Source of the DNA: Chloroflexota bacterium | GTDB taxonomy: Bacteria; Chloroflexota; Anaerolineae; UBA1429 | Assembly: GCA_012729455.1 (NCBI GenBank) | Contig: JAAYDC010000005.1 | Coordinates: 1 to 64,000, forward strand | Reading direction: 5' to 3' | Length of the DNA: 64,000 bases | Shown here: piece after piece, positions 36,100 to 43,669 of the stretch | Numbering within the stretch: the first letter of the stretch is position 1 | Layout: each line of letters opens with the position of its first letter | Notes under the pieces: generated by a model | Told to the model about the DNA's origin: nothing | The model's database searches: none | What the model saw: the letters and a program-made list of their open reading frames with translations, nothing else | Program-made: the position numbers and the translations under genes

Positions 36100-36132
36100 A
36101 GAGCCGTGCCGCGTTGGCACGGCTCTTTCTTT
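36100..36132 (+). terminator. rho-independent terminator after the lipoprotein gene
   Basis: An 11-bp perfect stem (36100-36110 with 36116-36126), 5-base loop, then TTCTTT. It stands 33 bp after the lipoprotein stop and directly before the ribosome-binding site of the next operon. That operon's promoter must therefore lie upstream and partly read through, or overlap here. Confidence 0.88.
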
Positions 36133-36146
36133 AAGGAGTTACGACC

Positions 36147-38303
36147 ACGCCTTCCGCAAGCTTTACACGCGACCAGCTGGCCGTCATAGAGGCGGCTCGA
36201 GCGCACGACAGCCGTATCTGGCTGCACGGCTTGCCCGGCAGCGGTAAAACGGCCGTTCTGGTTGAGATCATGCGTGAGCGTGTGGCGGGTGGCACCCGTC
36301 CTGACCAGATAACTGTGCTGGTGAGCGACCGCACCCAGCGCCGAGTTTATGAGAGCGCCCTGGCACAAAGCGACCTTCAGGCTGCCGGCGGAGTCACTAT
36401 CACGACATTCTATGGGTTGTGTCAGCGTGCTGTGGCGCTCTATTGGCCGCTTATCGCCCCTAGCGCCGGCTTTGCGCAACCCGAACGCGAGCCCGTCTTC
36501 CTCACAGTCGAGACCACCCAGCACCACATGGCGCAGGTGGTGCAGCCGCTGATCGACGAGAGCGGTTATTTCAGCGAGCTACGGGTACGCCGCGAGCGCC
36601 TCTATACCCAGTTGATCGATAACCTCAACAAGAGCGCCTTGGTCGGTTTCCCTCCGCATGAGATCGCCGAGCGGCTTATTTTGGCTTGGGCTGGCTCGGA
36701 GCGCCGCTATGGCGCGTACCAACAGGCTCAGGAGTGTGCTCTGCGCTTTCGCGCCCACTGTCTGCGCGAGTCGCTCCTGGATCTTTCGCTTACAGTGCTG
36801 CTCTTTACCGAGTTTGTGCGCCATCTCAACACCTATACCGCCCAACAGGAGCAGCAGCTGCAGCACCTCCTGGTGGATAACCTGGAAGAGAATGTGCCGG
36901 TGGCGCTCGACTATATTGCCTGGCTGCTGCCGCGCTGTCAGAGCGCCGTCCTGGCCAGCGATGACCACGCCGGTTATCGTGTCTTTTTGGGAGCCGAACG
37001 CGAGGCTGCCATCGCCCTGGGGCAGAGCCTGCCGCGCACTTTCCAGTTGCCGCTGCTGCCAAACGTCAATCCGGCGATGATGGCCCTCGTCAACCGTGCC
37101 CGTGTCGCGCTTGACCTCGAATCTCTCGATGTAGCGCCCGCCGAACCGCGCACAGCCATCCTCGGGCGGATCTCGGAGCGTTACTGGGCTGGCATGATCA
37201 AACAGATAGCCCGTAGCGCCGCCCAGATCGTCGCTGAGGGCATGCCGGCCGGACAAATCGCCGTCATCGCCCCCTATGTGAACGAAGTGACGCGCTTTTC
37301 GCTTTCCGAAGAGCTGCTAAAGCAGGGCGTCGGGTTGCAGCTGCTGCGCCCGGCCGCGCTATTACGCGACGATGTGGTGGTGCGCGCCGCGCTGACCCTG
37401 GCGCGCCTGGCGAACCCAGACTGGTTCCGTGCCGGTTACCCGCTGCTGGGGCAGCTACCCATTAACGACCTTGCCGAAGCGCTGGCGGTGACAATCACCG
37501 GGCTCGATCCGTTGCGCGCTATGTTGCTGGCACAGGCAGCCTGGTCTGCCAAGGATACCGCTCTCATCGACCTGAGCAGTACACCGCCGCCTGCTGACGG
37601 TAAATCGCGCAGCCTGTGGGATCGCCTCGGCTACCAGGTGCGCGAGCGCTACGAACTGCTGCGCGCCTGGCTGGCACAAAGCGCTGCCCAGGAGCCGCAA
37701 CCGCTCGACCAATTCCTCAGTACGCTCTTTGGCGACGTGCTCTCGCTTAACGGCTTCGGCCTCTACCTGCGCACAGACCTGGCACGTAGTTATGGCCGGT
37801 TGGTCGAATCGGCGCTCAAGTTCCGCCAGGCACTCGCACCGCACCAGACCGGCCCCGCCGAAACTTCAGCGGTGGCAGCCGCTTATACCGCCTTTGTGCT
37901 GGGTGGCCTGGCCAGTGCCGAATACACCAGCGATCGGCCCGAGCCTAGCGATAACGCAGTGATCCTGGCACCGGCCTTTGCCTATCTGACACGCGGCTTG
38001 ATCTCGCGCTGCCAGTACTGGATCGACCTGCGCGCGGATGGCTGGTGGAACCGCCCCAACCAGCCGCTCACACACCCATTCGTGCTATCGCGCAATTGGG
38101 AACCCGGGCGCATCTGGTATAACGCCGATGAAGATCGCGTGCGCCACGAGAGCCTGGGGCGCGTGCTGACGGGCTTGGCGGCGCGCTGCAGCGATGGCGT
38201 CTACCTGGCCAGTAGCGAGTTGGCGATCTCGGGCGAAGAGCAAACCGGCATGCTCGAGCGTGTGCTGCAGGTGGCGCTGCTGGATACCGGGGGCCGGACA
38301 TGA
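36147..38303 (+). CDS. degenerate UvrD-like ATPase, first subunit of a split AddAB-like complex
   Basis: About 718 residues if initiated at ACG 36147. It has the overall UvrD/AddA-type superfamily 1 layout: Q-motif-like FTRDQLAVIE, Walker A GLPGSGKT (28-35), and a motif III-like segment (VLASDDHAGYRVFLGA). A later domain-2 segment (GQIAVIAPYVNEV) follows, with a motif VI-like region near the C-terminus. The Walker B/motif II position reads LLVDNLEEN (D244, N245) instead of the expected DExQD, so ATP hydrolysis or helicase activity may be lost, as in AddB-like partner subunits. No ATG, GTG or TTG precedes the P-loop in frame, yet AAGGAG (36133-36138) is ideally placed for an ACG start. The stop overlaps the next gene by 4 bp (ATGA). 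Confidence 0.78.
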   Translation, partial: TPSASFTRDQLAVIEAARAHDSRIWLHGLPGSGKTAVLVEIMRERVAGGTRPDQITVLVSDRTQRRVYESALAQSDLQAAGGVTITTFYGLCQRAVALYWPLIAPSAGFAQPEREPVFLTVETTQHHMAQVVQPLIDESGYFSELRVRRERLYTQLIDNLNKSALVGFPPHEIAERLILAWAGSERRYGAYQQAQECALRFRAHCLRESLLDLSLTVLLFTEFVRHLNTYTAQQEQQLQHLLVDNLEENVPVALDYIAWLLPRCQSAVLASDDHAGYRVFLGAEREAAIALGQSLPRTFQLPLLPNVNPAMMALVNRARVALDLESLDVAPAEPRTAILGRISERYWAGMIKQIARSAAQIVAEGMPAGQIAVIAPYVNEVTRFSLSEELLKQGVGLQLLRPAALLRDDVVVRAALTLARLANPDWFRAGYPLLGQLPINDLAEALAVTITGLDPLRAMLLAQAAWSAKDTALIDLSSTPPPADGKSRSLWDRLGYQVRERYELLRAWLAQSAAQEPQPLDQFLSTLFGDVLSLNGFGLYLRTDLARSYGRLVESALKFRQALAPHQTGPAETSAVAAAYTAFVLGGLASAEYTSDRPEPSDNAVILAPAFAYLTRGLISRCQYWIDLRADGWWNRPNQPLTHPFVLSRNWEPGRIWYNADEDRVRHESLGRVLTGLAARCSDGVYLASSELAISGEEQTGMLERVLQVALLDTGGRT

Positions 38304-40522
38304 CGGAATCCCTTTACGGCTACCGTCTGCGGCCCCATCAACAGGCGATTCTGGATTACCGTGGCGGTTTGATGGGTGTGGCAGCCGTGCCAGGCGCCGG
38401 CAAAACCCTTACTCTGGCGCTCTTGGCCGCACGCCTGATCGCCGAGGGGCACGTGCCCAGCCGTGGCCAGGTGCTGGTTGTTACCGTGTTGAACTCGGCG
38501 GTCGATAACATCTCGCGGCGTATCAAGGCAATCTTGCAAAGCCAGGGTTTACCGGCTGTTGGCTACCGCGTGTGTACGTTGCATCGGCTCGGTGCCGATA
38601 TCCTGCGCTACCGCAACGATGTGGCTGGCGTCGAGGATACCTTTGCGATCGTTGATGGCGCCGACAGCGAACGTTTGATGGGACACGCCGTCAATACCTG
38701 GATCTCGTCCCACCAGGCATTATGGGAGAGCTACCTCGCGCCGGAACAGCTTGGAAGCCAAAGCGTGCGCGAGAATTGGCGCAGAGTGACGATCAGGATC
38801 GGCACCAACGCCGTCAAAGCATGCAAGCACCTGCGCCTAACTCCAGAGCAAGCCGCCCTCACTGCCAAGCGGCGCGGGATCGATAACTCCTTTGCGTTGA
38901 TGGGAATCCAGCTGTATGCCCTCTACCAGAGCTACCTGGGGACGCAAAACGCGCTGGATTTCGACGACCTGATCTGGCGCGCCATCGATTCGCTCGATCA
39001 GGATGCCAGCCTGCTCGCCGGCTTGCGCGAAAGATGGCCTTTTATCCTCGAAGACGAGGCGCAGGACTCGAGCCCTCTGCAGGAAGACATCCTGAGACGC
39101 CTGAGCTGGCCGGGCGGTAATTGGGTGCGCATGGGCGATCCCAACCAGTCGATCAACTCTACCTTTACCAGCGCTGATCCGCGCTATTTCCGGCGCTTTT
39201 TGGCTGATCCCGAGGTGAGTGTGCGCACGATGCCCACCTCCGGGCGCAGCGCGCAGCCCGTCATCGATCTGGCTAACCGCTTGGTCGCGTGGGTAAGCAC
39301 CAGTTATCCGCTGGAAGATATCCGCCAGATGGCCTTTGAACCGCAGATGATCCAACCCACCGCCGAGGGCGACCCGCAACCCAATCCGCCTGCGGTAGGC
39401 GGCGTGGTGCGCCTGGCTGAGCCCTTGAACAACCAGGAGGACGAAGTCGCACAAACCGTCGAGTTGGCGGCTCGTTTTGTGCGGTACAACCAGCTCTACT
39501 CGCAGGCGATCCTGTGCCCCACCAATAAGCTTGGTGAGATGGTGATGCGAAAATTTGAGAAAAATCCCAAGCTGAACGTCGACGACCTGTTAAAGTCGAC
39601 ACCGCAGACCCGCCAGGTAGCCAGAGTGCTGCATACTGTGTTTCACTTTATCAGTAGTCCCAACCGATCCGGACAAACCAGGCTGTTCAAATGTTTGTTG
39701 AACAGCGGTGTGTTAGGGGCAGAGCTTGCGACGGTGCGTGAGCGCACGATTACCACCCTGCTCAACAGTGGTGATCCCGAAGAGGTCTTTTTCGCCGCGC
39801 AGATCGAAGCTTGGTACACGCGTCTGCCCGCCGATACCCAGCCGACGGAGGAGGAGCAAGCCCTGCTGGCGCGCTATATCGAGCTGGGATCGCGCTGGCT
39901 GCGTGCGAGTATTCTGCCGCCCGACCAGTTGCTGCTGACCATCGCGCAGGACCTCTTCAGTGCCGAAAACGAGCTGGCCATCGCCCAGCTGCTGGCTAAC
40001 CGCCTGCGCAGCCTGTGGCAGGCCAACCCTGCCTGGCGTATAGCAGAGTTCTCCAGTGAGTTATCGGGCATTGCCAACAACAAAAGCGGGCTGGGTGAAG
40101 TCGGTTATAGTGACATCGGCTACGAGCCGCAGCCTGGGCGCATCGCCGTTACCACCATGCACAAAGCCAAGGGTCTGGAGTGGGATGTGGTCTATCTGCT
40201 CAGCATTGACGACCTGGAATTCCCCGATCGTTACGAGAGCCGCTTTCGCTCCGAGCCCTACTTTATGCCCGGACGCATGCCCGATCAGGAGGCTGGCGAC
40301 ATCCTGGCACAGCTTACAGGGAGTGATCCGCTCGTGCAGGACCCTGCGGCGATTATTCGAGAGAGTCAGAGCGCCAACATCGCCGAGCGGCTGCGCCTGC
40401 TGTACGTCGCCATCACGCGTGCGCAGCGCCACCTCTGGCTCTCATACACCCACAACAACCAGCGCACGCCGGTGGGCGCGCCCGCGGCACTGCTGGCCTT
40501 ATTCAACAAGGATACCCCATGA
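38300..40522 (+). CDS. UvrD/PcrA-type superfamily 1 helicase, second subunit
   Basis: A 740-residue helicase with all core motifs intact. They are Q-motif RPHQQAILDY, Walker A VPGAGKT (30-36), motif Ia VVTVLNSAVDN, motif II EDEAQDSS (DEAQD 252-256), motif III MGDPNQSINSTF, motif V TTMHKAKGLEWDVVYL and motif VI RLLYVAITRAQ. It ends soon after motif VI, so it carries no C-terminal nuclease domain of the AddA type. Its start overlaps the previous stop and its stop overlaps the next start, both as ATGA. It is the likely motor of a complex with the flanking degenerate ATPase and iron-sulfur nuclease. Confidence 0.9.
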   Translation: MTESLYGYRLRPHQQAILDYRGGLMGVAAVPGAGKTLTLALLAARLIAEGHVPSRGQVLVVTVLNSAVDNISRRIKAILQSQGLPAVGYRVCTLHRLGADILRYRNDVAGVEDTFAIVDGADSERLMGHAVNTWISSHQALWESYLAPEQLGSQSVRENWRRVTIRIGTNAVKACKHLRLTPEQAALTAKRRGIDNSFALMGIQLYALYQSYLGTQNALDFDDLIWRAIDSLDQDASLLAGLRERWPFILEDEAQDSSPLQEDILRRLSWPGGNWVRMGDPNQSINSTFTSADPRYFRRFLADPEVSVRTMPTSGRSAQPVIDLANRLVAWVSTSYPLEDIRQMAFEPQMIQPTAEGDPQPNPPAVGGVVRLAEPLNNQEDEVAQTVELAARFVRYNQLYSQAILCPTNKLGEMVMRKFEKNPKLNVDDLLKSTPQTRQVARVLHTVFHFISSPNRSGQTRLFKCLLNSGVLGAELATVRERTITTLLNSGDPEEVFFAAQIEAWYTRLPADTQPTEEEQALLARYIELGSRWLRASILPPDQLLLTIAQDLFSAENELAIAQLLANRLRSLWQANPAWRIAEFSSELSGIANNKSGLGEVGYSDIGYEPQPGRIAVTTMHKAKGLEWDVVYLLSIDDLEFPDRYESRFRSEPYFMPGRMPDQEAGDILAQLTGSDPLVQDPAAIIRESQSANIAERLRLLYVAITRAQRHLWLSYTHNNQRTPVGAPAALLALFNKDTP

Positions 40523-41346
40523 AGCGCCTGCCGCCGGAATTCCTGTTCAGCCAGCACAGCCTGAGCACCTACCAGCGTTGCCCGCGTCGCTTTTGGCTGC
40601 GCTATGTAGAGGACCAGCCCTGGCCCCTGCCGGAACGCGGTCTGCCGCCCGATTACCAGCTCGCGCTGCAGCGCGGAGTGACGCTGCACCGCTGGATCGA
40701 GCGCGTGCTGCGGGGCGTGCCGCCTGAGCGTATCGTACCGACCGGCGATGACCCGCGGCTTGCAGAGTGGTGGCAGGCCTGGCTGGGGTTCGACTGGGGC
40801 ACGCTCCCCGATGAGTTGCGCGTGCCAGAGCTGCCGTTGGTGTGCCGCTTTGGCGAACAGCGCCTGTATGCGCGCTACGACCTGGTAGCCCTTGAGCGCG
40901 GCGGCCGCGCGGTGGTGGTGGATTGGAAGACGCTCCAGCATGTTCCGCGCCCCGCAGCACTGCGCACCCGTCTCCAGACGCGCATTTATCTGTGCGTGCT
41001 GACCGAGCTGGGCGGTCTCGTCACCGGCGGGACGCCGGTTGACCCGCAGCAGCTCGAAATGCTCTACTGGTTCGCGAATTTCCCTGAATCTACCGCCACG
41101 GTAGGATATTCGCCGCATGCTTACGCCGCTGATAAAGCCGAACTTACCGAGCTGATGGCGCGCATCGCCAGTGCCGACGAGGCCCATTTTGTGCGCACCG
41201 ACGAACTGGCATTATGCGCCAGCTGCAACTATCGAACTTTGTGTGAGCGCGTTGTCGACCCGACTGACGCCGCCGCCACCAGCTGGCTGGACGAAGATGC
41301 CGACTTTCAGATCGACCTGGCCAGCGTCCCGCTCATCGACTGGTAG
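40519..41346 (+). CDS. PD-(D/E)XK nuclease with iron-sulfur cysteine pattern (AddB/Cas4-like)
   Basis: A 275-residue RecB-family nuclease. Active-site residues are H57 (GVTLHRW), D121 (YARYDLV), D135 and K137 (VVVDWKT). One cysteine near the start (C21, YQRCPRRFW) and three at the end (C233, C236, C242; spacing C-x2-C-x5-C) match the iron staple of AddB and Cas4, which holds the fold around a 4Fe-4S cluster. The ATG overlaps the helicase stop (ATGA). It would supply the cutting activity for the two upstream helicase-like proteins. The last 135 bp overlap antisense to the downstream glycosidase gene. Confidence 0.88.
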   Translation: MKRLPPEFLFSQHSLSTYQRCPRRFWLRYVEDQPWPLPERGLPPDYQLALQRGVTLHRWIERVLRGVPPERIVPTGDDPRLAEWWQAWLGFDWGTLPDELRVPELPLVCRFGEQRLYARYDLVALERGGRAVVVDWKTLQHVPRPAALRTRLQTRIYLCVLTELGGLVTGGTPVDPQQLEMLYWFANFPESTATVGYSPHAYAADKAELTELMARIASADEAHFVRTDELALCASCNYRTLCERVVDPTDAAATSWLDEDADFQIDLASVPLIDW

Positions 41347-42832: not shown

Positions 42833-43609
42833 CTATATCCACAGGTCGGCCAGCGAGTCGGACGTCTTTACATAATTTTGTAAGTCCAGCTGGGTAAAGC
42901 TTCGTCCCAGCAGGTGAACCGGTTCCATCTTTAACGAGACGCGTATTTCCTGGGTGTAGGGCCCTTCTCCCAAACGCATGGGAGAGACCGAGCCATAGCC
43001 ACGGGTGGCCGCGGCGGCGTTCTCGCGGATCAGGGCGCAGGCGTCCGGAGGGGCCAGGTGGCGTGCCAGCTGTGGCCCCAAGCCCACTTTGACGGGCGCG
43101 CCATAGATATTCGGCACCAGAGCGCGCGCTTCGGCCACGGCCGCCTCATCGCCGCTGATAAACGCCGTCGGGATATCATAGCTGCCCGCCAGGGCGGCCC
43201 GGCAGCCGAATTCGCCCATCTCGAGGCCGTTGATCGCAAAACGCTCGATGGTAGAGGATGAATAGGTGTGTGCCAGCACCCCGCGCGCGGTGCCCGCCTT
43301 GGAATGCTGCCCGACAAAAAAGAGCGCATCCCAGCCCTCGCCAAACAGCTCGGGCAGCGGTACCGACACGGCATTAAGCAGTTCACAACCGCTTGGCACC
43401 TGCTCGAAATCGATCGAGCCGGAGCCATGGGCATCCCAGATGCAGATGTGCGCGTCCGCCGCCACCTCGCGGATGCCGTCCAGGCAGGCCAGCAACTCGG
43501 CGGTCGCTAGGCGCACCGCCTGCAGGTACCATGGCGAGTTGCGGTCGCCCTGTTCCCAGCGCCACACACCGCTGGTGCCTTCTATATCGGTGATGATAAA
43601 GATGCGCAT
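42833..43609 (-). CDS. M55-family D-aminopeptidase (DppA-like)
   Basis: A 258-residue zinc peptidase of family M55, which releases N-terminal D-amino acids from peptides, for example recycled wall peptides. Ligand motifs are ITDIEGTSGV (D and E), DAHGSGS, FVGQHSKAGTARGVLAHTYSS and NGLEMGEFG. SGDEAAVAEA completes the signature. Length is close to that of DppA. Start ATG 43609 is preceded by GAGGAGG. It lies 13 bp upstream of the glycosidase gene on the same strand, probably co-transcribed. Confidence 0.88.
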   Translation of the reverse strand: MRIFIITDIEGTSGVWRWEQGDRNSPWYLQAVRLATAELLACLDGIREVAADAHICIWDAHGSGSIDFEQVPSGCELLNAVSVPLPELFGEGWDALFFVGQHSKAGTARGVLAHTYSSSTIERFAINGLEMGEFGCRAALAGSYDIPTAFISGDEAAVAEARALVPNIYGAPVKVGLGPQLARHLAPPDACALIRENAAAATRGYGSVSPMRLGEGPYTQEIRVSLKMEPVHLLGRSFTQLDLQNYVKTSDSLADLWI

Positions 43610-43669
43610 CGCCAACCTCCTCGGGGTGTTGGTCTCATCTTACGAGATGCACCCCATCTGCACAAGCAG

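Follow-up and report, generated by a model that had tools for sequence, protein, structure and literature searches.

Introduction

In the DNA-end resection machines described elsewhere, the motor, dead-motor and iron-sulfur nuclease parts are fused into two proteins. In RecBCD, AddAB and AdnAB a covalent link ties the nuclease to the motor or the pseudo-motor, which makes it difficult to study how the nuclease is regulated. The domain layout of AdnAB, the system of mycobacteria and streptomycetes, is established (PMC13309787), and AddB is known to carry an inactivated helicase domain with a second ATP site and a latch (PMC4824097). In Clostridiales, unfused UvrD and Cas4-like genes share a predicted operon whose context is not one of defence (PMC5704561). 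This is the nearest published arrangement that we found; the literature searched, in which subscription papers were largely lacking, yielded no description of the three-gene locus reported here.

The locus is a trio of genes (A, B and C, 36141-41346, all on the plus strand) in a 64,000-nucleotide stretch of an Anaerolineae (Chloroflexota) genome, which we call the window. It is best read as an undescribed three-subunit variant of the AddAB/AdnAB/RecBCD class, a vertically inherited piece of repair machinery. We put at roughly 65% the probability that A, B and C form one heterotrimeric, ATP-driven complex that resects or degrades DNA ends.

Layout of the locus

36100..36126, plus strand: terminator-like hairpin of 12 bp with a T-rich tail, 5' of gene A (consensus match only)
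36133..36138, plus strand: AAGGAG ribosome-binding site of gene A (read from the sequence)
36141..38303, plus strand: gene A, a frame of 720 codons for a UvrD-fold pseudo-helicase, starting at a non-canonical codon (ACG 36141 or 36147)
38300..38303, plus strand: ATGA overlap of the A stop and the B ATG
38300..40522, plus strand: gene B, intact UvrD/PcrA-type SF1A helicase, 740 aa, without a nuclease domain
40519..40522, plus strand: ATGA overlap of the B stop and the C ATG
40519..41346, plus strand: gene C, 275-aa stand-alone PD-(D/E)XK nuclease with a predicted four-cysteine iron-sulfur site

Both ATGA overlaps by which a preliminary description of this DNA had linked the genes are in place, at 38300-38303 and 40519-40522. 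The start that it gave for gene A, 36133, has to be abandoned: this position belongs to the AAGGAG ribosome-binding site, which follows so closely on an in-frame TAA stop (36132-36134) that the two overlap. The gene A frame holds no ATG, GTG or TTG upstream of the TTG at 36231, itself within Walker A. The start must therefore be non-canonical, at one of the ACG codons that lie 2 and 8 nt past AAGGAG (36141 and 36147), or else the start base is wrong in the assembly. Most gene A orthologues start with ATG.

The terminator-like hairpin stops 6 nt short of AAGGAG, too close for a promoter to fit into the gap, and no promoter-like site was found between the hairpin and the gene. Attenuation, read-through or a promoter further upstream therefore has to be invoked.

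Two orthologues are broken. An internal stop divides gene A of one relative (G037, L108 6451-7526) into two frames. At another locus (L177, 10090-12421) gene B is likewise in two frames; both cases reflect either sequencing errors or decay.

The three proteins

We aligned each protein with orthologues from relatives (28 sequences for A in alignment A1, 22 for B in A3, 28 for C in A2). The motifs discussed below are the following.

36228..36251, plus strand: Walker A of A, GLPGSGKT, residues 30-37, kept in all untruncated orthologues
36876..36890, plus strand: degenerate motif II of A, DNLEE, residues 246-250, with N in place of the catalytic Glu of DEAQD
38384..38407, plus strand: Walker A of B, AVPGAGKT
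39053..39067, plus strand: motif II of B, DEAQD, residues 252-256, invariant in 22 orthologues
40406..40423, plus strand: motif VI of B, VAITRA, residues 703-708, including Arg707
40579..40581, plus strand: C21 of the predicted iron-sulfur staple of C
40879..40929, plus strand: nuclease core of C, D121 to D135-W-K137
41215..41244, plus strand: C233-x2-C236-x5-C242 of the predicted iron-sulfur staple of C

Protein A matches the Pfam UvrD N-terminal domain weakly (7e-8), and the domain search gave no ADDB_N match. Profile comparison shows its kinship to B along some 400 columns (E 3.5e-11), and in the profile alignment the DNLEE of A pairs with the DEAQD of B. Across the 28 orthologues this motif reads DNxEE with N247, E249 and E250 invariant, so the catalytic Glu has been lost in every A; the Gln of motif III is also gone. 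Together with the retained P-loop, these losses predict a protein that binds ATP but does not hydrolyse it. The C-terminal halves of A and B are not alignable by profile, and motifs V and VI of A were therefore not mapped onto B.

Protein B has the full SF1A motif set, invariant in its 22 orthologues. It matches the UvrD N (6.5e-40) and UvrD C domains of Pfam and no others, and the domain search found no nuclease domain in it. By profile, its nearest relatives are PcrA, UvrD and Rep, with AddA and AdnB further away.

Protein C matches PDDEXK_1 (Pfam, E 4.9e-28) and carries an intact RecB-type nuclease core; the residues H57, D121, D135-W-K137, Q153 and Y157 are present. C233, C236 and C242 are invariant in its 28 orthologues and C21 is present in all rows that extend that far. 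These cysteines make up an AddAB-type staple pattern, one Cys plus C-x2-C-x5-C flanking the nuclease, and hence a predicted iron-sulfur site. Against the Cas4 model TIGR00372 the protein scores 20.9 bits, under the curated cut-off of 65. The initial assignments of all three genes, as a UvrD-like protein with Walker A and a broken motif II, an intact UvrD helicase without nuclease and a stand-alone PD-(D/E)XK nuclease with C21 and C233-x2-C236-x5-C242, are confirmed.

Fold relatives

The AlphaFold models of A and C are confident (pLDDT 90 and 89, respectively). Model A resembles UvrD-type helicases as a group, with Z reaching 30; it matches AdnB 22-795 (Z 26, 632 aa), AdnA 14-712 (Z 23, 576 aa), AddA (Z 22) and AddB 2-696 (Z 21, 599 aa). 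The best match of model C is the AdnA nuclease, residues 784-1039 (Z 17.3, 222 aa, 3.0 A), and the second is the AddB nuclease, 778-1135 (Z 14.8). The Argonaute-associated Cas4-like ACE1 scores 14.5, and Cas4 and ExoV score near 10. Since A falls on AdnA 14-712 or AddB 2-696 and C on 784-1039 or 778-1135, the two proteins correspond to consecutive, non-overlapping halves. As judged from these models, the closest fold relative of the A and C pair is AdnA, not AddB. This amends the original idea of an AddAB-type machine divided over three chains, which folds, motifs, linkage and co-occurrence otherwise support.

At the sequence level, the A profile matches AdnA at 228-473 (1.3e-6) and ranks UvrD and AdnA ahead of AddB. 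The C profile matches the AdnB nuclease (2e-7) and, over 230 columns, the nuclease of the AddB encoded in the same genome. We also considered A as a fragment of AddB by sequence and rejected it, the profile similarity being confined to the P-loop region and ADDB_N being unmatched. For this reason we do not claim that A descends from AddB; it is best called a UvrD-fold pseudo-helicase in an AdnA/AddB-like role, rather than a proven AddB descendant.

Comparison with described systems

The trio resembles AdnAB in that AdnA, whose motor-like and nuclease folds are both found in the A and C models, is the best fold match of A and C together, and in its active UvrD-type motor partner. However, AdnA and AdnB each fuse a UvrD-like motor to a RecB-like nuclease, whereas A and C are separate and B has no nuclease, which leaves the trio with one nuclease against two in AdnAB. 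With AddAB/RexAB it shares an active motor, a pseudo-helicase that keeps its P-loop and a C...C-x2-C-x5-C nuclease, the halves of AddB being matched by A and C. It differs from AddAB/RexAB in having no fused chains, no AddA nuclease and no ADDB_N match: AddA joins a helicase and a C-terminal nuclease in one chain, which B does not, and AddB unites a helicase-like part, with ADDB_N, and an Fe-S nuclease that are separate open reading frames here. AddAB is further marked by its recognition of Chi and by its latch, and the AddAB/AdnAB/RecBCD class as a whole by processive, ATP-dependent unwinding and degradation that start at DNA ends. Like RecBCD, the trio has three chains and one nuclease; unlike RecBCD, it has neither RecC nor RecD, and its nuclease is not fused to a motor. 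The Clostridiales operon (PMC5704561) likewise has separate UvrD and PF12705-type nuclease genes, but only two genes are named there, whereas the trio has a third, the conserved pseudo-helicase A. As for Gabija, neither A, B nor C matches GajA, the OLD-family nuclease.

Co-occurrence, linkage and taxon range

Of 60 relatives, 30 carry A, 32 carry B and 28 carry C, and every genome with C also has A and B, so that 28 hold all three (Fisher p about 1e-14, without correction for phylogeny). The genes adjoin, with overlaps, in the order A-B-C in 18 of the 30 carriers, in two cases across contig breaks; in 6 carriers only A and B adjoin, and in another 6 A is unlinked. Loss of linkage does not entail loss of the genes. 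In a single-contig genome (G041) they lie at 3.468, 3.480 and 3.598 Mb, scattered and all retained, and such co-retention without linkage is also seen in G017, G035, G049 and G051. The distances of A, B and C intercorrelate (r 0.90-0.95), and inheritance of the trio looks vertical. With hundreds of orthologues and a near-perfect co-occurrence of three genes, chance is not a credible explanation, and the check for conserved three-gene synteny gave a strong answer.

A is confined to Anaerolineae. In a separate sample of 151 genomes from the phylum it was found in 16, all of this class, the one other match being short and at P-loop level; C was found in 15 of the 16, plus one stray partial match within a 1173-codon frame of another class. 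A scan of named-species genomes gave over 570 relatives, and the 80 that were kept are labelled Chloroflexota/Anaerolineae or bear no taxon name, bar one Gemmatimonadetes metagenome bin. Anaerolinea thermolimosa IMO-1 is among them and has the trio. A-B-C is contiguous in 27 of these 80 loci, and many of the others end at contig borders. The Gemmatimonadetes-labelled gene A (L128 7974-10079, isolate J002) probably comes from a bin with the wrong label, or else from a transfer.

Long open frames in G034, G044, G016 and G012 were considered as A-B or A-C fusions and rejected; they are GC-rich read-through upstream of A.

Canonical end-resection enzymes in trio genomes

The source genome encodes a canonical AddB-AddA operon on contig 20 (L010 1304-7635), in which an AddB of 1017 aa (ADDB_N plus nuclease) adjoins an AddA of 1102 aa (helicase plus nuclease). 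Two RecBCD-class systems coexist in this genome, and given its AddAB the trio is not the sole end-resector there. AddAB is in fact found in 14 of the 30 carriers (13 by AddB search, plus a divergent one in G051) versus 5 of 30 non-carriers (Fisher p 0.025). We therefore rejected the trio as a general replacement of AddAB; given their co-occurrence, its task might be more specialised than double-strand break (DSB) resection.

In the other 16 carriers (G005, G008, G009, G017, G019, G027, G029, G034, G035, G037, G042, G044, G045, G049, G054 and G056) we found no AddB, AddA, other AdnAB-size nuclease-bearing frame or RecC, a count to be read with the facts that several are draft genomes and that some RecB nucleases escape the PF12705 model. 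RecC (PF04257) is absent from the trio carriers and was found only in G050, which lacks the trio and, RecC notwithstanding, gives no PF12705 hit. Anaerolinea thermolimosa IMO-1 (G204), also a trio carrier, yielded no full-length match to AddB. The suggestion that the trio is the main end-resection complex of its lineage thus fails for the source genome but is plausible for the 16 carriers in which no AddAB, RecBCD or AdnAB was found. The preliminary description had named AddAB in the same genome, together with absence of linkage, as evidence against its reading; AddAB is there, but linkage and co-occurrence of the trio are strong.

About 25 of the 60 relatives have neither trio nor AddAB, and one of those (G050) is the genome with RecC.

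A proposed three-chain machine and its alternatives

AddAB and AdnAB both work with an active motor, an ATP-binding inactive motor and an Fe-S nuclease, and this leads to the three-chain end-resection reading. In such a machine B would be the only motor; it would start at a DNA end and unwind the duplex 3'-5'. A, the presumed hydrolysis-dead UvrD-fold partner still able to bind ATP, would take the role of AddB or AdnA: it would dock B, separate and guide the strands and possibly gate the nuclease. C, as the single iron-sulfur nuclease, would cut the emerging strand or strands. The complex would thereby leave 3' single-stranded tails on which recombination can act, or it would degrade linear DNA.

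More tentatively, with somewhat less than even odds, we envision a fourth architecture found in Anaerolineae only: a heterotrimer whose nuclease can detach and whose pseudo-helicase is locked in the ATP-bound state by the class-wide Glu-to-Asn change, acting as the sole RecBCD-class enzyme in about half of the carriers. Regulation could then consist in docking and undocking of the nuclease. In a natural three-chain version the nuclease could be supplied, left out or swapped; such a version would explain how broken DNA is resected in a large, mostly uncultured class without AddAB or RecBCD, and would extend the textbook set of three architectures by a fourth.

The trio could instead serve replication or fork repair rather than DSB resection, B acting like PcrA at stalled forks while A tethers and C trims flaps or gaps. 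This would suit the PcrA/UvrD/Rep kinship of B, the presence in 14 carriers of an AddAB that already serves DSB ends, and the end trimming by stand-alone PD-(D/E)XK nucleases known elsewhere (Cas4, ExoV). We nevertheless hold it unlikely, since an active motor together with an Fe-S nuclease and a dead motor that binds ATP is the signature of AddAB/AdnAB, and a separate PcrA-like UvrD of 872 aa is encoded on contig C30.

Slightly less probable still is a dedicated anti-phage or anti-plasmid helicase-nuclease, in which A would sense DNA ends and foreign linear DNA would be destroyed. Phage DNA is among the substrates that RecBCD-class enzymes degrade, B scores on GajB about as on PcrA (generic UvrD scoring), and the trio is patchy within a family and stands alongside AddAB in 14 of 30 carriers. 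Yet the ten flanking genes in the window gave no PADLOC hit, the trio is flanked by folate, amidohydrolase (metal-hydrolase), peptidase and glycosidase genes, and no relatives were found in viral contigs. Moreover, the distances of A, B and C follow one another and taxonomy, and retention despite scattering is unusual for mobile defence cassettes. The flanking gene types, the missing PADLOC hits and the vertical-looking inheritance make defence less likely, and the defence system entertained earlier found no support.

That the three are loosely related proteins sharing an operon without a stable complex, B and C as in the Clostridiales unfused UvrD/Cas4-like operons (PMC5704561) and A regulatory, is improbable, because A and C jointly reproduce AdnA/AddB and the genes are co-retained without linkage in five genomes.

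Neighbouring genes

Conserved-neighbour clustering was dominated by antisense shadow ORFs, and the real neighbours of the trio, all lineage-limited, are a GreA-like gene, a D-aminopeptidase and an ABC transporter only. The GreA-like gene lies near A in eight loci (L129, L135, L139, L151, L162, L166, L167 and L184). The D-aminopeptidase (Peptidase_M55, 42833-43615) is two genes downstream of the trio in the window and recurs near it in several genomes of the same family.
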